DNA from: Leclercia adecarboxylata
GTDB lineage: Bacteria; Pseudomonadota; Gammaproteobacteria; Enterobacterales; Enterobacteriaceae
Assembly (NCBI GenBank): GCA_901472455.1
Contig: LR590464.1
Span: forward strand, 1,860,001-1,924,000
DNA length: 64,000 nucleotides
Direction of reading: 5' to 3'
Shown here piece after piece: positions 1 through 13,080 of the stretch (its first letter is position 1; each line of letters begins with the position of its first letter). The notes beneath the pieces were generated by a model, which had not been told where the DNA came from, did not search any database, and saw nothing but the letters and a program-made list of their open reading frames with translations. The translations under genes were made by a program, and so were the position numbers.

Positions 1-1649
1 CTTGATGTTGTACTGCAGGACATCAACTCAGGCTTCTTTGCTGAGTTTGGCCCTCAATTACGCAAGCTGAATTCTGCACTGCTGGACCCACTGGTTCAGG
101 AGTTGCAGATTACCTTTATCGGTGACTCCATCACCTGGGGCACTGGCTCTACTGGCGCAGCCGCCAGCGGAACGCGGGACGGAACACTTTCAGATCCGAG
201 GAATAACGCCACATCGCCATCATATGTCAATCAGCTGGGGCGTTTAATTGCCGGGATTCTTGGTGCCAATACTGTTACCACCTTCTCAAACCACAGCTAC
301 TCGCCAAGCGGTGAGTCAATCCGTGAAATGGTGACGGATAAATACGAATTCCCTTACGGGAGTGCTTATTATGTTGTGGGTTCAGGAAGCTTCACGGATG
401 TTATCGATACAAATGCGACGGGGCCGTACCTTGGGGCCCGCAGAACAATAACCGTGTCAGCCGGGGCTTCGGCATCGCTGAGCTTCAACTTCACGGGAAG
501 TAAGTTCAGCCTGGTATATTCTCAGCTGCCGAGCAGCGCCGATTATGAATTACTGGTTAACGGTGTATCTCAGGGCGTATTTTCTACCAGAGATGCCACC
601 GCGGCGTTTAATACCCGTCGGTCCCACTCGTTTGGGTTCGTCACGAATGGAACGATTACAATTCGCGCTCTGCAACATTCCGGTGATACCGGTAATCAGC
701 AGCTCCGCATAGAGGCGCTGTTGTTCCCGAAAACTGTCCGGATAAAGAACCAGGGGATTATCGGCACCACTACCGAACAGTATGCAGCCTATAATTTCCC
801 GGCCTTTCTGAGTCGCCCTAAACCCTATCCACCACAAAATATGCCGGGATTCAGCCAGACATTTGTAGGAAACGGCGGGCATGAATACGTTGAGTCAGCG
901 GAGCCAAATGCGATCCTGGGCATGCGCTACAAATATTCGTTCACCAATACAGGCTCATGGGAAATTACGCTAAAACCGGCGGCAACAGATGACCGCGTCG
1001 CAATTTACTTTTCCTCGACAGACAAAACCTGTGATGTGCAGGTACTGGCCGATGGCGTGGCCATTGAAACGTTCCACACATCGTCAAACGAGCAGGGGGT
1101 CCCGTTTGGTTACCAGAACAGCAAAATCGTGACGATCCCCGCTGGCACGCAAACGGTAAAACTCAAGACAGTCTTTGTGCCATACCAAAGTTCGGTTAGT
1201 TATTTGTATCTGGAAGGTCTGACAACCTTCAATAGCAGCAGTCAGACCTATCCAACAAACAATAATTTCAAGGACGGCGTTGCCCTTGATGACAAAGACA
1301 TGTTTGCCTTTTTCCAGGTGGGGGTGAACGACCGAGAATCTAATCAGGTGAAAAGCCCAACCCAGATCCGCACCCAGCTAGAAAAAATGCTGTCGCTGAT
1401 TCCGCAGGGATGTTCGCCAGTTCTTATGGCATCAAAACCCCGCAAAGGAGGCCGGTAATTATTTCATGCAGGACATGGTGCAGGCGATCCGGCAGACTGC
1501 TGAGAAAATACAACGTGGCGTTTATCGATAACTTCAACCTGTTCGATAAATACAATATGGCGTACTTCACCACCGACAGCCTGCATCCCAATGACATTGG
1601 CCACAACATGATCGCCAGGAACATCATCAAGAGCATTCGCTCCAGTTGA
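1..1649 (+). CDS. Phage tail-spike-like SGNH/GDSL hydrolase (5' end outside window, two frameshifts)
   Basis: The reading frame is open from base 1, so the N terminus lies to the left; the TTG at 103 is not a convincing start. SGNH-hydrolase blocks are visible: GDSITWG (nucleophile Ser, about 120-140), GVND (about 1324) and a C-terminal DSLHPND carrying the catalytic Asp-His (about 1577-1597). A central beta-rich region separates the first two. The reading frame breaks near 1437 (an extra C in a C run) and near 1505 (an extra A). Removing both bases gives one continuous protein ending in LHPNDIGHNMIARN. Such esterase modules in phage tail spikes deacetylate or cleave host surface polysaccharide. 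That role is inferred from the prophage context. The domain call is firm, the tail location less so. Confidence 0.72.
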
Positions 1650-4536: not shown

Positions 4537-4776
4537 ATGCCCCGCAAATCAGACATTAACGCGGCTTTTACCGCGGCCATACAGCTAAACCCGAAAGGGT
4601 ATCAGTGCCTTCACACGAATGACTTCATCCGGGAGTTGCGCGCCAGGAACTGGCATTTCACCCAGGCTGATGCGAATGAATGGATTGAGCAGTACCAGAC
4701 TTGCTTCGTAGACAAGACGCCGGACGGTAGCCAGAACCGCCTATGGATGCTGCGCAATATGGGGAGGGTTCTGTAA
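4537..4776 (+). CDS. SOS-induced small phage protein
   Basis: 79 residues, MPRKSDINAAF at the start. ATG 4537 is chosen because an AGAGAGG ribosome site precedes it and upstream starts would fall inside the LexA box. The sequence is soluble and mixed charge, with a W-rich helix (NWHFTQADANEWIEQY). I recognise it as a type found in lambdoid prophages immediately before UmuD-like genes, but know no function. Its stop overlaps the next start (TAATG), so the two are translationally coupled. A decayed paralogue lies at 1750. Confidence 0.7.
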   Translation: MPRKSDINAAFTAAIQLNPKGYQCLHTNDFIRELRARNWHFTQADANEWIEQYQTCFVDKTPDGSQNRLWMLRNMGRVL

Positions 4777-5093
4777 TGGGATTCCCTTCACCTGCCAGCG
4801 ACTATATAGAGACCAGGCTCACTCCAGAAAGGATTTGCGGCGTAGGCATTGATACCCGCATCCTGGAAACGTCATCCGGGTTTGCGGTGATCGAGCCGGT
4901 CACTCGACTGGTGCAGGGGCAGGTTCTGCTGATCCTTAGTGGCGGTCAGACTCAATTTGCACGGTTTCTGGGAAAAGCATTAATCACAGAGGACGGCGAG
5001 GCGATAGAAGGCGACGCAGCTGAAGAGGTCGAAGTCCTGGGCAGGGTGACTTTCTTTATCAACAGCACAGGCGCGGATGATAGGCCGGTGTAA
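4776..5093 (+). CDS. UmuD'-like protein lacking the UmuD catalytic dyad
   Basis: 105 residues beginning MGFPSPASDYIETRL. This matches UmuD from Gly25 (GFPSPAADYVEQR), the residue just after UmuD's self-cleavage site. The C-terminal EVEVLGRVTFFI matches the last UmuD strand. The segment that holds Ser60 (SGDSM) is shortened to SSGFAV, and no Lys equivalent to Lys97 is evident. The protein is therefore made directly in a processed, non-cleaving form. By homology it might bind a UmuC-like polymerase or RecA. No umuC is present in the window. Start by TAATG coupling to the gene before. Confidence 0.65.
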   Translation: MGFPSPASDYIETRLTPERICGVGIDTRILETSSGFAVIEPVTRLVQGQVLLILSGGQTQFARFLGKALITEDGEAIEGDAAEEVEVLGRVTFFINSTGADDRPV

Positions 5094-5108
5094 AAATCCC
5101 ATAAAAAA

Positions 5109-5127
5109 GCCCGCATCAGCGGGCTTC
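5109..5127 (+). terminator. Intrinsic terminator after the SOS operon
   Basis: Hairpin GCCCGCATCAGCGGGC followed by TTCTTA, 15 bp after the UmuD'-like stop codon. The flanking A run also gives weak activity on the other strand. Confidence 0.75.
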
Positions 5128-5254
5128 TTATCACTCGGGAGCCGCGGCTCCTTTGCGTATCCTTTTTTGTCCCCTCACCGTCTGGTCGGTGTCCTGCTGA
5201 GACTGCTAACTTCCTGTTATTGCTAGTGATGTCCTATCACTGTCCAATCATTAT

Positions 5255-5282
5255 TGGTGGAGCTGGCGGGAGTTGAACCCGC
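5255..5282 (-). other. tmRNA (ssrA) 3'-end fragment, likely attachment-site core
   Basis: Read on the minus strand, these 28 bases match the enterobacterial tmRNA T-arm and acceptor end (GGTTCAACTCCCGCCAGC then TCCACCA). Nothing to the right continues as tmRNA, so only the 3' end is present. The 3' end of ssrA is a standard integration target for islands and phages (for example CP4-57). The fragment is best read as an attachment-site core carried by this element, or a scar of one. Confidence 0.65.
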
Positions 5283-5307
5283 CGCCTCTGTGTTGATCCT
5301 GAAATGA

Positions 5308-5512
5308 CTACTGGAAGAAACCTTCCCATTCGTCAACCCAGCATTGAACCACCTGGTGCATGCTGGCGCGAACCGTATGTGAAAGAGGCAAAGTCTGGTT
5401 GCTGACGCATGTAGGCCTGGAAAAGAAGGCCTTTAGCTGGGTTGTTTTCGTGCCGCCCATCCCATTGGAGGTATAGGTCCCTACATCTGATTTTGGTTTC
5501 TTCTTTAGTCAT
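5308..5512 (-). CDS. Small prophage protein, unknown function (frameshifted)
   Basis: Begins MTKEETKIRCRDLYLQWDGR. With one base corrected near 5375 it runs to a C terminus VVQCWVDEWEGFFQ. An in-frame upstream Met at 5560 would add 16 residues. The sequence is acidic and aromatic, about 67 residues, with no signal peptide or membrane span. It lies between the two attachment-like sequences, where integrases and small regulators usually sit. I do not recognise it. Confidence 0.4.
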
Positions 5513-5680
5513 GTTGAAAATCCTTGCTACGTCTGGAAAGTGCCGAAAATTGGTTATCAAAACTGATAAAAGGTTACGTCAAAACAGAACGTTAGGTAAT
5601 CGCTGAAAGCATGAAAACAATTTAAGTTTTTGAAAAAATTTCTTTTAATATCAATTAGCAATCTGATTTCCTGGAAACTA

Positions 5681-5845
5681 CTGCTGCGTCACATGGAATG
5701 GTTCGAAGCCGCAGACCTGATCGTTAAAGGTATGGAAGGCGCGATTAACGCCAAAACCGTAACTTACGATTTCGAACGTCTGATGGAAGGCGCTAAACTG
5801 CTGAAATGTTCAGAGTTTGGTGACGCGATCATCGCGAACATGTAA
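5681..5845 (+). pseudogene. icdC: 3' end of isocitrate dehydrogenase (icdC-like), prophage attachment duplicate
   Basis: From the [15 protein letters not shown] segment the frame encodes the last 55 or so residues of Icd (...[18 protein letters not shown] and onward), ending [10 protein letters not shown]. The 50 or so in-frame residues upstream are AT-rich and not Icd. This is the layout left when an e14/phage 21-type element integrates into the 3' end of icd: the phage supplies a new 3' end and the original one is displaced to the far boundary. It marks the right end of the prophage. The rebuilt icd should be at the other boundary, outside the window. Confidence 0.85.
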
Positions 5846-5867
5846 TCCGCTGTTCGGGTTATCTAAG

Positions 5868-5896
5868 AACGGGAGCCTGTAGGCTCCCGTTTTTTA
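5868..5896 (+). terminator. Terminator after the icd 3' copy
   Basis: AACGGGAGCC/GGCTCCCGTT hairpin with a TTTTTT tail, 22 bp after the icd stop. It is probably the native icd terminator. Confidence 0.85.
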
Positions 5897-5903
5897 TTAT
5901 TAA

Positions 5904-5949
5904 CTGACCCGCTGACCCGCTGACCCGCTGACCCGCTGACCCGCTGACC
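5904..5949. repeat. 8-bp tandem repeat, 5.75 copies of CTGACCCG
   Basis: Five perfect copies plus CTGACC lie just after the icd terminator in non-coding DNA. It looks like slippage-generated microsatellite DNA; no gene covers it. Confidence 0.9.
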
Positions 5950-6101
5950 AACGCAGGTCTTTATTGTTAGCCGTGAAAAATAAAAGATAACATTCGCTTT
6001 ATTGAAGGAAGGGGATTAGGCTTCCCCTGTGGTGAATCCCCCCTAAGCGGTGGGGCGACTAGTCAGAGCAGGTGAATGACGCGGCTCTGTGGTCTGGCGC
6101 A

Positions 6102-8257: not shown

Positions 8258-9616
8258 ATGAGGATTCTTCCTGGTCGACACGGTTGTCGCATTCTTCCTG
8301 CAATCATACTTTCTTTGCCCTTTGTCATTTCTGTGACCATGGCTCAGGCGAGGGCGTCTTCGTCTCCCTCGCACTCTATTTCTGACAACACCTCGCCGGG
8401 CGGTTTGTTTGCCGCGCTGCGGAGCACGATGCTCCATCACCCCGGTCTTGCCAGTCAGCAGGCGCTTGTGCGTTCCAAAGAGGCCAATGCCGACAGTGCC
8501 CGCGCGGCGCGTTTGCCCACGCTTGGGGCCAGCGCAGGGACGGGGCAAATTTCGGGTTACAATGATTCCACTTCGACTACCTTAAGCGTATCGCAACCGT
8601 TATGGGCTTTTGGGCGTATCGACAGCGCGATTGACTACGCCGACGATGACACCCTTGCTCAACAAGCCACGGCCTGGGCTACACGTCGTGAATTGCTGGA
8701 AGAGACCGCAGTGGCCTACGCGAATGTGCAGGGGGTTCGCGAGCGTCTTGCCGTAGCTGAATCGAACGTAAACAACCATCAGGCGTTGCAGGAGCAGATC
8801 CAGCGCCGCGCGCAGGGTGGACTGGCCTCTTCGGCTGATGTCAGCCTGGCGAAGGCCCGGTTGTTACAGGCGCGTTCCTCGCTCGAACAGGCCAAATCGG
8901 ACCTGCTTACCGCCGAATCCACGCTGTTATCCTTGACTCAGGAGCCGATCGCAAGCGATCTGCCGGTGCCTGGCAACATCCTCCAGCTACCTGCCGATCA
9001 GGCGATACAGGAACAAGTTCTTGCGCAGAGTGCGACCGTGCGTGCCCGCGAAGCGGGAGTTACGCTTGCCGAAACTGATGTGGAACGTCAGCGCACCTCA
9101 TCGCTGCCGACCGTCTCCCTGCAAGCCTCCCGCAACGACTACTCAGGCATCCCCAACCAGAGAAATAACAATACGATCAATATTGTGGTGACCGGCACTA
9201 TGGAAGGGCTGGGGCTGGTGAACCGTGGTCTTCAGAACGCGGCGCTGGAACGCGTGGAGTCCGCACGACAGGATCTGGCCCAACAACGCCACAGCGAAGA
9301 CATTCAGACGCGCCAGTTGCTTGATCAGCGTGATGCTAACCAGACGTTGCTGGTGGGTTATGAGCAGTCTGTTGTCGAACTCAGCGACACGCTGGCATCG
9401 TTCCGTCGTCAGTACGAGTCGGGCTACAAAAGCTGGCTGGACGTTCTCAACGCTGTACGCGAATTAACCGAACAACAACAAGCGCTGGTATCGGTACGAT
9501 CGGCATGGCGGGTCGACAGCTTACGACTGGCCGCGCGCACGGGACGTATGGACGATACCTCGAGCGCCCTGCCCACGGGCACACCACTAGCTAACACCTC
9601 TGCGAGCCATCCCTGA
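8258..9616 (+). CDS. TolC-family outer membrane channel of a type I secretion system
   Basis: 452 residues. The N-terminal basic and hydrophobic segment (residues about 10-30) is an export signal. The mature part is two alpha-helical coiled-coil repeats with the OEP-family pattern (LPTLGASAG..., SQPLWAFGRIDSAI..., AYANVQGVRERLAVAESN, then a second copy with LPTVSLQAS and FRRQYESGYKSWLDVLNAVREL). This matches the LapE/AggA group dedicated to giant adhesins rather than housekeeping TolC. It would form the outer membrane exit duct. Its stop overlaps the ATG of the transporter (TGATG), so expression is coupled. It is the first gene of a five-gene operon. Confidence 0.88.
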   Translation: MRILPGRHGCRILPAIILSLPFVISVTMAQARASSSPSHSISDNTSPGGLFAALRSTMLHHPGLASQQALVRSKEANADSARAARLPTLGASAGTGQISGYNDSTSTTLSVSQPLWAFGRIDSAIDYADDDTLAQQATAWATRRELLEETAVAYANVQGVRERLAVAESNVNNHQALQEQIQRRAQGGLASSADVSLAKARLLQARSSLEQAKSDLLTAESTLLSLTQEPIASDLPVPGNILQLPADQAIQEQVLAQSATVRAREAGVTLAETDVERQRTSSLPTVSLQASRNDYSGIPNQRNNNTINIVVTGTMEGLGLVNRGLQNAALERVESARQDLAQQRHSEDIQTRQLLDQRDANQTLLVGYEQSVVELSDTLASFRRQYESGYKSWLDVLNAVRELTEQQQALVSVRSAWRVDSLRLAARTGRMDDTSSALPTGTPLANTSASHP

Positions 9617-11841
9617 TGATACCTGTTCCTCTCTCTGAATTACTGGCCTTGCTGGACAAGCTACGCGCCCCGGTGAATAAAGCGGCATTAACGCAGGCGT
9701 ATGCGCGAGCGCAGACCGTGACTCCGTTGACAGATCGTCCACAGGATCATGTGCGCAAGATATTGTCAGACGCGGGAATGAAAGATGTCCGGCTGGCATT
9801 ACTTCCCTGGCGGCGTTTTGATCCACGCCATCTACCGGCACTGATGTGGCACGAACAGACATGGTGGCTGGCCGAACGCTACAACGAGGAAGGGAAAACC
9901 GATACCCTCACGCTAACCCGGGAAGGTGTCGAACCCCGAACGCTGACGGTAGACGACCTTGTGACCGGTGCGCCGGGTACGGCTGCGGATGACGAAACGG
10001 CGGTGCTCTGGTTCAGCCTGGCTTCGCACGTCCAGTCAGAAAATCTCTCTGATAGCGAAAATCCGGCTATGCGCCTGGTCTGGCGAGAGCTGCTGCGCGA
10101 CCGACGCTGGGTGTCCCGGGTCGTCGCCGCCACGCTGCTGGTAAACATTCTGGCCATTCCCACCTCGCTCTTCGCCATGCAGGTTTACGATCGCGTGGTT
10201 CCCACCCTGGCCTGGGCAACACTGACCACGCTGGTTGTGGGGATGGTGCTGGTGGTGGGGCTGGACTGGCTGCTCAAAACACTGCGTGCCCGCGTCATGG
10301 ACAGCGTTGCCAGCAGTGTGGATAAACGGCTTTCCCAGCATGTCTATGAACACCTGCTGCACCTGCAACTCGACCAGCAGCCCGGCAGTCTGGGCACGCT
10401 GGCCGCTCAGGTGGGGGCGCTGGATTCGGTACGGCAGGTTGTCTCTGCCGGTCTGGTCTTCGGTATCGTGGATCTGCCGTTTGCACTGCTGTTTATCGGG
10501 CTTATTGGTTTGATCGGTGGGCCTGTAGGCTGGGTTTACCTCGGGATGTTACCTGTCGCCCTGGCGATTGGCCTGTTCACCCGTCTGCGCTTACGTCGTC
10601 TCACGCGCCAACAGATGCTTCGCAGCAATGAGCGTCTGGGCCTGTTAGTGGACAGTATTCGCGGGGCCGAGACGCTGCGCGCCAGTCATGCTGGCTGGCG
10701 TTTTGCACAAGACTGGCAGACGCTCAGTCATTCCATCTCTGGCTATAGCATTCAGCAAAAATCGCTCAGTCAGTTCTGCACTATCACCACCGGCAGCCTG
10801 GCAACACTGGCGTATGTCATGGGGATTGTAGTCGGGGTCTGGGGCGTCGAAGCCGGATATTTGACCACTGGCGGCATGGTAGCGTGCAGTATTCTGGGTG
10901 GCCGTGTCATCGGGCCGGTGAGTCAGGGTGTTCAGTACCTGATGCAGTGGCAGCAGGTCAGAGAAGCGCTGGATATGGTGAACAACCTCTTGCGTAAACC
11001 TACGGAGCGCCGCCCCGGACAGACCCTGTTGTTGCCCGATCGCCTGCCAGAACATATCAGTGTGGAAAAGCTGCGCTTCGCCTTTCCGCAGTCTCCGGTA
11101 CAACAACTCAATATTCCCGCACTCCACTTTCATGCCGGTGAACGCGTGCTGCTGTTAGGACCCGTTGGCGGCGGTAAATCGACGTTGCTGAAGGTCCTGG
11201 CCGGGCTGTATCGCCCCGGTGAAGGCCGCGTCCGTCTGGGCGATGTCGATTTGTGGGAGATCGATCCCCAGTTGGTCAGTGCTCAGGTCGGCTATCTGCC
11301 ACAAGCGGTGCAGCTCTTCAAAGGTACGCTGCGCAGCAATCTTATGCTCGCGGGTGCAGTCAGCGACACCACGCTGACGGACGTTACCCGCGATCTGGCG
11401 CTGGATCAGGTGGCTGCCAGTAATCCGCTGGGTATGGATATGGCTATCAGTGAAGGTGGCTCGGGTCTGTCTGGCGGTCAACGCCAGCTGGTAGGCCTGG
11501 CACGTGTGCTGATGGCACGTCCACGTATCTGGCTTCTGGATGAACCGACAGCCTCGCTTGATGGCGAAGCGGAGGCCCGTGTCTGGAAAGCATTACAAGC
11601 CAGGCTCCAGCCAGAGGATATCCTCATCGTCGCCACTCACCGTCCGATGGCGGCCATTAATTTTGCAACCCGTGTGCTGGTCGTGCAGGAAGGCACCATC
11701 GTACGAGATGGTACTCCAGACAAGTTGTTGCCAGGACTGATGGCGCGCGCCACCGGCTCGCGGCCCACCGTTGAGGTCATGAACGTAAAAACACGTATGC
11801 CAGAAGCATCAAATTCAGCAGGAGTTCTTAATGGCCGTTGA
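9616..11841 (+). CDS. Type I secretion ABC transporter (LapB/RtxB-like)
   Basis: 741 residues. An N-terminal domain of about 130 residues resembles the C39-like domain of adhesin exporters and has no obvious catalytic Cys-His pair. A six-span ABC exporter membrane domain follows (about 160-450). The nucleotide-binding domain carries Walker A GPVGGGKST (about 513), signature LSGGQRQL (about 617), Walker B IWLLDEP (about 637) and H-loop ATHRP. It would energise export of the adhesin across the inner membrane with the HlyD-like adaptor. The start is fixed by TGATG coupling, and its 3' end overlaps the adaptor gene by 11 bp. Confidence 0.9.
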   Translation: MIPVPLSELLALLDKLRAPVNKAALTQAYARAQTVTPLTDRPQDHVRKILSDAGMKDVRLALLPWRRFDPRHLPALMWHEQTWWLAERYNEEGKTDTLTLTREGVEPRTLTVDDLVTGAPGTAADDETAVLWFSLASHVQSENLSDSENPAMRLVWRELLRDRRWVSRVVAATLLVNILAIPTSLFAMQVYDRVVPTLAWATLTTLVVGMVLVVGLDWLLKTLRARVMDSVASSVDKRLSQHVYEHLLHLQLDQQPGSLGTLAAQVGALDSVRQVVSAGLVFGIVDLPFALLFIGLIGLIGGPVGWVYLGMLPVALAIGLFTRLRLRRLTRQQMLRSNERLGLLVDSIRGAETLRASHAGWRFAQDWQTLSHSISGYSIQQKSLSQFCTITTGSLATLAYVMGIVVGVWGVEAGYLTTGGMVACSILGGRVIGPVSQGVQYLMQWQQVREALDMVNNLLRKPTERRPGQTLLLPDRLPEHISVEKLRFAFPQSPVQQLNIPALHFHAGERVLLLGPVGGGKSTLLKVLAGLYRPGEGRVRLGDVDLWEIDPQLVSAQVGYLPQAVQLFKGTLRSNLMLAGAVSDTTLTDVTRDLALDQVAASNPLGMDMAISEGGSGLSGGQRQLVGLARVLMARPRIWLLDEPTASLDGEAEARVWKALQARLQPEDILIVATHRPMAAINFATRVLVVQEGTIVRDGTPDKLLPGLMARATGSRPTVEVMNVKTRMPEASNSAGVLNGR

Positions 11842-13080
11842 ACTGTTTGACGACGAAGTCGCTGATGCTGCTCGCGTGCATCGGCTGGAAAACTACCACC
11901 GCAGCCGCATCTCCGCCGGGCTGATCTGGAGCAGCGTCGCACTGGTCCTGGGTTTCGTCATATGGGCGAGCTATTTTCGCATTGATGAAGTCGCACGGGC
12001 ACACGGTGAAGTGATCGCCAGCAGTCGGGTGCAGATAATCCAGACCGTGGACGGGGGCGTACTCTCCGAGCTGCATGTCAAAGAGGGTGACCACGTTAAG
12101 GCGGGGCAGATTCTGGCTCGCCTCGATCCAACTCGCGTTGAAGCAGCGGCGGGTGAAGTGGACGCGCGTATCATCGGTCTCAGGGCGCGCATTGCCCGAC
12201 TTCGCGCAGAATCAACGGGGCAGTCAGCGCCCAGGTTCCCCTCCGATCCTGACCCGGCCTTGCGCGAGCAGGCAGACATTGAGCGTGCACTTTTTCTGCA
12301 ACGCCGTCAGAGCCTGCAGGAAGATATCACCGCGCTGCAAACCGCCGTGAATTTAGCCAGTCAGAAGCTCAACCTGGTGAACGAGCTGGAACGCTCTGGC
12401 GATGTGAGCACCAGTGAGCGGCTTAACGCGCAGCGCGATCTCAATGAAGCCCGTGCCCGCCTGCTGGGTCGCCGCAATAAGTTTTTGGACGACGCACGAG
12501 CCGATCTCACCAAGGCTGAAGATGACCTGGGCCAGACATTGCAACAGATGGCAGGCCGTCGCCAGCAGGTGCACGATACGGTCTTTACGGCCATGGGGCC
12601 TGGGATAGTCAAAAACGTCCGCGTCACCACGCTGGGCGGGGTATTACGTGCGGGTGATGAGATCATGCAGATCGTCCCGTCCGATGATGCCCTCATCATT
12701 GAGGCTAAGGTTCTGCCTGCTGATATTGCCCGTGTTCAGGTTGGACTCCCGGCCACCGTACGCCTTGACCCCTTTGATTACACCATTTATGGCGCCTTGC
12801 AGGGGGAGGTGATTTATGTCTCGGCCGACACCCTTAAGGAAAACACACCACGTGGCGAGGAGATCTACTACCGCGTCCATGTTCGTTTGAAAAGCCATGC
12901 TGAAGGTCAGTCAGACCGTCAGGAAGAAGGCAGTTTGTGCGCAGTACGACAGGGCGTCAGCTCGACATCCTGCCGGGCATGACCTCTCAGCTCGATATCC
13001 GTACCGGTGATCGCACGTTGATGGACTTTTTACTTAAACCTTTGCGTAAAACACTCAGTGAATCATTCCAGGAGCGATGA
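11831..13080 (+). CDS. HlyD-family membrane fusion protein (one frameshift)
   Basis: One membrane span near residues 30-50 (LIWSSVALVLGFVIWASYF), a lipoyl-like hairpin (VDGGVLSELHVKEGDHVKAG), a long periplasmic coiled coil and a beta-barrel region. The uncorrected frame stops at 12982. Shifting frame near 12930 restores the family-typical ending LPGMTSQLDIRTGDRTLMD through RKTLSESFQER, with the stop at 13078-13080. It links the ABC transporter to the TolC-like channel. The adhesin gene follows after 81 bp. Confidence 0.88.

Follow-up and report, generated by a model that had tools for sequence, protein, structure and literature searches.

A probable relic of an ssrA-type attachment site in an icd-integrated prophage of Leclercia adecarboxylata, consistent with exchange of the integration module

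Integrases set where a temperate phage sits; integration-module swapping among lambdoid phages is an established idea, and tmRNA genes are established targets. What does it mean that one end of a prophage in L. adecarboxylata carries the 3' ends of both icd and the tmRNA gene ssrA? The locus lies in a stretch of 64,000 nucleotides (contig LR590464.1, here C1, positions 1,860,001 to 1,924,000), which we call the window and from whose first letter positions are counted. An earlier note had placed a 28-bp tmRNA 3' fragment 400 bp inside a duplicated icd 3' end, the whole at 5255-5845, and had read this as two nested elements, the scar of one, or an element that had exchanged its integration module. 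Both signatures are present and the distance between the two pieces is indeed 400 bp, with two corrections: the tmRNA piece is 29 bp long, and the feature extends beyond 5255-5845, a conserved arm of the ssrA type beginning at 5101. The features are:

103-1649, plus strand: tail-end gene, SGNH/GDSL-hydrolase-like, in two frames (103-1458 and 1410-1649), from open reading frames and an E. coli match
4743-5093, plus strand: UmuD-like gene, the last before the attachment region (phrog_3469, E 8e-45)
5101-5253, no strand assigned: predicted tail-side (P-type) arm of an ssrA-type attP with a terminator-like hairpin, from matches in phage LLS, E. coli and the same genus
5191-5205, plus strand: GTCCTGCTGAGACTG, suggestive candidate for an arm-type site of the ssrA integrase, from a repeat in LLS
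5254-5282, minus strand: tmRNA (ssrA) 3' end, probable relic attP core, 29 bp, 100% to the genome's own ssrA
5283-5681, no strand assigned: spacer from the tmRNA relic to the icd core, with a small, frameshifted minus-strand gene (5308-5560), from IMG/VR loci
5552-5562, plus strand: GGTTATCAAAA, candidate arm-type site of the icd integrase, one copy per prophage end
5682-5905, plus strand: second icd 3' end and terminator, the right attachment site of the prophage; the coding part ends at 5845

The second icd end matches the end of the complete gene (C1:1823412-1823635) at 208 of 224 positions (93%), with the longest identical runs at 5753-5834 and 5693-5751. The complete copy lies to the left, with about 42.3 kb between the two ends. 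At this other boundary, where the earlier note had advised looking for icd and its integrase, an integrase gene adjoins the complete copy (locus L014, 5693-6820, minus strand), and its product matches IntE of the E. coli element e14 at 85% over 375 aa and the integrase of phage 21 at 61%, with the Pfam domains Arm-DNA-bind_1 and Phage_integrase. The 11-mer GGTTATCAAAA has exactly two copies in the 52 kb of C1:1818001-1870000, at 1823643 by the integrase gene and at 1865552 (window 5552) by the second icd end, and it likewise flanks both icd copies in e14, a placement from which we infer that the two copies bind Int. The icd end is thus the probable working site, given an icd-type integrase and GGTTATCAAAA at both ends as in e14, and the element has what marks an icd-specific prophage: a duplicated icd 3' end, an icd-type integrase and shared arm-type sites on both sides. 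Terminase, portal and tape-measure genes are present as well, and its tail-end gene matches an E. coli SGNH/GDSL hydrolase family protein at 93%, with a weak Pfam Lipase_GDSL_2 match below cut-off. Frameshifts abound in this assembly, where icd itself is split over three frames (L014 4325-5575) and genome completeness is 78%; broken frames here therefore mean little. A short tandem repeat, CTGACCCG, lies at window 5905-5950, just downstream of the second icd end, and at 8258-12982 TolC-like, ABC-transporter and HlyD-like frames in a row resemble, by reading, a type I secretion locus beside the prophage.

If icd is the working site, what is the tmRNA piece? Window 5254-5282 is 100% identical over 29 bp to the 3' end of the genome's own ssrA (C1:3753339-3753367), and the 28-mer at 5255-5282 is the sole match in the 64-kb window at up to 3 mismatches, the mean in shuffled sequence being 0.00 (n=100). 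Gene prediction across the window returned no tRNA or tmRNA gene. That the piece is a chance match, or belongs to a tRNA-like gene unrelated to ssrA, has a negligible probability in view of identity at 29 of 29 bp, no occurrence in shuffles, no such gene predicted in the window, and an adjacent arm homologous to the arms that flank ssrA elsewhere. The earlier note had proposed a search for the full ssrA and its own occupied site. The complete gene is the single match in the genome above the tmRNA family cut-off (C1:3753003-3753366), and it is probably occupied by a genomic island, because a P4-type integrase gene, its frame split, adjoins it just downstream (L017 8571-9813; C1:3753571-3754813). 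No further exact core that could serve as the distal att copy of this P4-type element was found in the genome.

The 153 bp to the left of the piece place it in a known setting. Window 5101-5282 matches Escherichia phage LLS at 92% and E. coli OkiPb01697 at 90%. In LLS the arm, core, integrase and excisionase lie together, the depositors having annotated a tmRNA pseudogene and attP, then the integrase and excisionase. The arm abuts an intact ssrA in the E. coli loci L050 and L052, and in a genome of the same genus (G144, L020) an arm of 95% runs into ssrA, with two cores about 43 kb apart. Among 5426 E. coli genomes, 4235 gave matches to 5101-5678, short ones to ssrA itself being counted too, and 24 of 40 evenly sampled rows of these matches overlap an annotated ssrA. 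By sequence comparison, then, arm and piece together are the putative tail-side half of an ssrA-type attP. The alternative source named in the earlier note, a conserved phage gene unrelated to attachment, does not hold for a piece that belongs to a non-coding arm and adjoins ssrA elsewhere. Within the arm, GTCCTGCTGAGACTG is a candidate site for the ssrA integrase in that LLS has a second copy, with 2 changes, across the core (the observed count is reached in 3.5% of shuffles); no second copy was found within 1200 bp in the Citrobacter phage phiNP. As a separate observation, K-12-type E. coli genomes keep a remnant of the arm, with the core mostly missing, between ypjA and ypjF (L049 4001-4165), beside what we take to be the CP4-57 region; this suggests the end of an older ssrA phage.

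An integrase to go with this arm was sought with those of LLS, phiNP and PhiR12_1, which gave no tblastn hit at E 1e-3 in C1:1818001-1870000. The window prophage has the arm and tmRNA core of the LLS kind of ssrA-specific phage, but it sits in icd, and the LLS-like integrase that marks an ssrA phage was not found in it. The assignment of the two targets to different integrase classes stands in that ssrA-type and icd-type integrases gave no mutual BLASTP hit at E 1e-3, although both are tyrosine recombinases.

We consider it very probable that the arm and piece are a relic half of an ssrA-type attP in an icd prophage, left by an exchange of the integration module. According to this explanation, an ancestor would have inserted into ssrA, and the window arm with its 29-bp piece would be the tail-side half of its attP; the other half, together with the ssrA integrase, would have been replaced by the spacer, an icd-type attP and an icd-type integrase, with the tmRNA core as the seam of the replacement. 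The same explanation, with the same high probability for the whole, leaves the tmRNA piece without a present attachment role in this prophage. The scar and the module exchange of the earlier note would then amount to one event, in keeping with an ssrA-type arm beside an icd-type integrase. Two nested or tandem elements, that is, an ssrA-type element or its remnant inside the icd prophage and bounded by tmRNA pieces, would also bring two attachment signatures within 600 bp of each other. Yet the 17-bp core GCTGGCGGGAGTTGAAC has exact copies in the genome only in the window and in ssrA, a whole-genome search for the exact core yielding no second piece to bound an inner element, no integrase like those of LLS, phiNP or PhiR12_1 lies in C1:1818001-1870000, and the same layout occurs in contiguous phage contigs that bear attP, which makes nesting very improbable. 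Passages of PMC10111431 describe helper-embedded satellites, with an icd prophage.

The preferred explanation, a relic left by module exchange, draws on relatives with the hybrid layout. In E. coli OkiPb01697 the arm and core recur (27 of 29 bp) and are followed by a different spacer and an icd 3' end. This genome represents an independent hybrid; its stretch is covered at 80% or more in 58 of 5426 E. coli genomes. Four of these 58, inspected further (L059-L062), have a heavily altered core: here, as in L108-L112, a variable number of TTGGTGGG units has taken the place of the relic core. Searching IMG/VR with the spacer protein of the window recovered six loci (L083-L088). The core is perfect in L083 and L086, damaged in L085 and absent from L088, and in L084 and L087 a changed core is preceded by other sequence on its left. 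In L083 and L084 the core, spacer, icd end and integrase are contiguous, an attP-like arrangement; the layout is therefore not an artefact of how this genome was assembled. Their integrase, directly after the icd end, is of the phage 21 type (79%). In the window prophage the spacer is shared but the integrase is of the e14 type, which suggests the icd end as a second point of exchange. Against the preferred explanation, no phage with both ssrA and icd modules was seen among the relatives compared, and e14 and phage 21, the nearest icd phages with long records, lack the core in the stretches searched.

The spacer itself recurs in L083-L087, and in L088 without the tmRNA core; its gene is open as a 92-aa form in L084. 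Spacer genes have no functional name in PHROGs or Pfam. In 60 other genomes of the genus, matches to the spacer query were limited to the tmRNA core or the start of icd, and one weak match to the spacer gene across 84,980 species genomes (46% over 35 residues, in a Cyclobacterium bin) was set aside as chance. Varied long genes lie right of the core, before a new attachment site, in L115, L154, L175, L177, L185, L190 and L193. The seam looks as if it were also a cargo spot, with possible defence genes as candidates.

Does the seam fall at the core? Left arms and right sides of the core were compared in a discordance matrix of 16 loci. The window and L105 share 99% over 150 bp on the left and have no match on the right; likewise, L050, in ssrA, matches L051 at 99% on the left and not at all on the right, L051 reaching the 3' end of a tRNA-Thr gene, presumably thrW, 396 bp beyond the core. 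The reverse is seen in L101, which on the left matches neither L100 nor L012 and on the right matches them at 96-97% (96% over 199 bp for L100). Searching with the OkiPb01697 spacer protein gave 13 loci, in which a single type of spacer meets several left arms at the core: LLS-type in L100, unmatched in L101, diverged in L106 (87% to L105) and that of the window in L105 and L107. The left-arm type of L101 occurs in at least three further records that run into ssrA. Conversely, left arms that are nearly identical are followed by the tRNA-Thr gene, by ssrA or, across different spacers, by icd; other right sides that reach icd are those of L186, L193 and L171. Two observations qualify this picture. 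In L088 homology to the window spacer starts at spacer base 20 and the core is absent, so that join need not lie exactly at the core; and in ssrA phages, too, the match to tmRNA breaks off shortly beyond these bases, which puts the seam where the attP identity block naturally ends.

Because the seams coincide from both sides, the exchange likely uses the core, and crossing-over at a core common to ssrA-type and hybrid phages is the likely route. Short-homology recombination over 25-29 bp, or the ssrA integrase acting in trans, could have carried it out, and both fit. A stronger proposal, that the core is an active hinge at whose 25-29 bp ssrA-type and hybrid phages trade whole integration modules (icd, tRNA-Thr, ssrA and others), possibly cut by the ssrA integrase, we put forward tentatively and regard as rather doubtful; if it held, a phage lineage would change its chromosomal address in one step and keep its tail end.

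The breadth of the phenomenon bears on a further alternative. Exact-pattern scans of IMG/VR and the named loci gave at least 209 core-bearing records, duplicates included. Among those listed, the right side runs into ssrA in at least 90, reaches icd within 900 bp in at least 8 (5 distinct sources), is an icd-type spacer at which the contig ends in at least 6 (3 distinct) and is of another kind in at least 105, many of which resemble the right halves of ssrA attP by their first bases. Right sides of class A (at least 11 records) reach icd in two (L186, L193) and neither tested target in nine within the stretch examined; those of class B (at least 9 records) reach the tRNA-Thr end in four (L051, L153, L182, L121) and do not in five, and class B sequence is present without the core in phage 21 and ev207. 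There are also five single cases, among them L171, which reaches icd, and L155, with an ssrA-type integrase. One left arm, arm 0, is found in 96 of the 209 core-bearing records among the matches listed, with many right sides, as would be expected if arm and core were a conserved tail-end terminator unit that travels whole, its right side replaced by illegitimate recombination with the core uninvolved. Against this, the same right side joins other left arms at the core (L101 compared with L100 and L012, 96-97% on the right), and the diverged arm of L106 (87% to L105) meets the same spacer type; we regard such a unit as possible but on balance unlikely.

A core left behind by module exchange might decay, and this was scored over 25 bp in 19 loci ascertained by spacer and 80 ascertained by an LLS-type integrase. 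The spacer-ascertained set comprises 6 intact cores, 7 with 2-4 mismatches, 5 heavily changed and one locus without a core; in the other set, 39 are intact, 11 have 1-6 mismatches and 30 have no core within the stretch examined. Intact cores number 6/18 against 39/50 when loci without a core are dropped (p 0.0011), 6/19 against 39/80 when nothing is dropped (p 0.21) and 6/11 against 39/50 when near-identical icd-linked loci are collapsed (p 0.14), p values that ignore phylogeny and compare with integrated ssrA prophages whose core is partly the host's. As significance varies with the loci dropped, decay is kept here as description: damaged cores are those of L085, L084/L087, L100, L102-L104, L059-L062 and L108-L112. 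The damage fits a site without attachment function, the statistical case being weak, and decay cannot be claimed for the window copy, whose core is perfect. That perfect 29-bp core, the intact 25 bp in 6 of 19 spacer-ascertained loci and the P4-type integrase gene that follows the genome's own ssrA would suit a core retained as functional, for insertion at ssrA or as a target for ssrA elements, with an ssrA integrase supplied in trans. Half of the attP is missing, however, the core is damaged in 12 of the 19 loci and absent in one, and no hit linked the P4-type integrase to the ssrA phage integrases compared; a functional core is improbable.

Module swaps are known from phage comparisons, and the joint is rarely visible; here it would be marked by a fossil half-site. 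As this half-site adjoins several targets, the tmRNA core offers a concrete, testable sequence for a role in module exchange. For annotation, a 3' piece of tmRNA close to the end of a prophage is no proof that the prophage inserted there. Elements in tmRNA genes have reportedly been treated by Williams. In the open-access literature searched, with most subscription papers outside its scope, we found no description of the hybrid or of a tmRNA core as a seam.

Among known systems, e14 with IntE, icd-specific in E. coli K-12, is like the window prophage in its integrase (85%), its duplicated icd 3' end and GGTTATCAAAA by both copies, and differs in its tail-end genes and in having no tmRNA core in the stretch searched. 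Phage 21 and ev207 (Escherichia, Jouyvirus), also icd-specific, have the icd 3' end in attP by int and xis; phage 21 differs from the window prophage in its integrase (61%), in other arm sites and in the lack of a tmRNA core in the stretch searched. The ssrA-specific phage LLS shares the arm and core (92% over 5101-5282), but there the core is followed by the phage's own half of attP, an integrase and an excisionase, none of which the window prophage has. The integrases of Citrobacter phage phiNP and Escherichia phage PhiR12_1 match that of LLS at 85% and 67%, respectively, and neither is like that of the window prophage; what these two phages share with it is the arm with the tmRNA core, which in them stands at the ends of the records.
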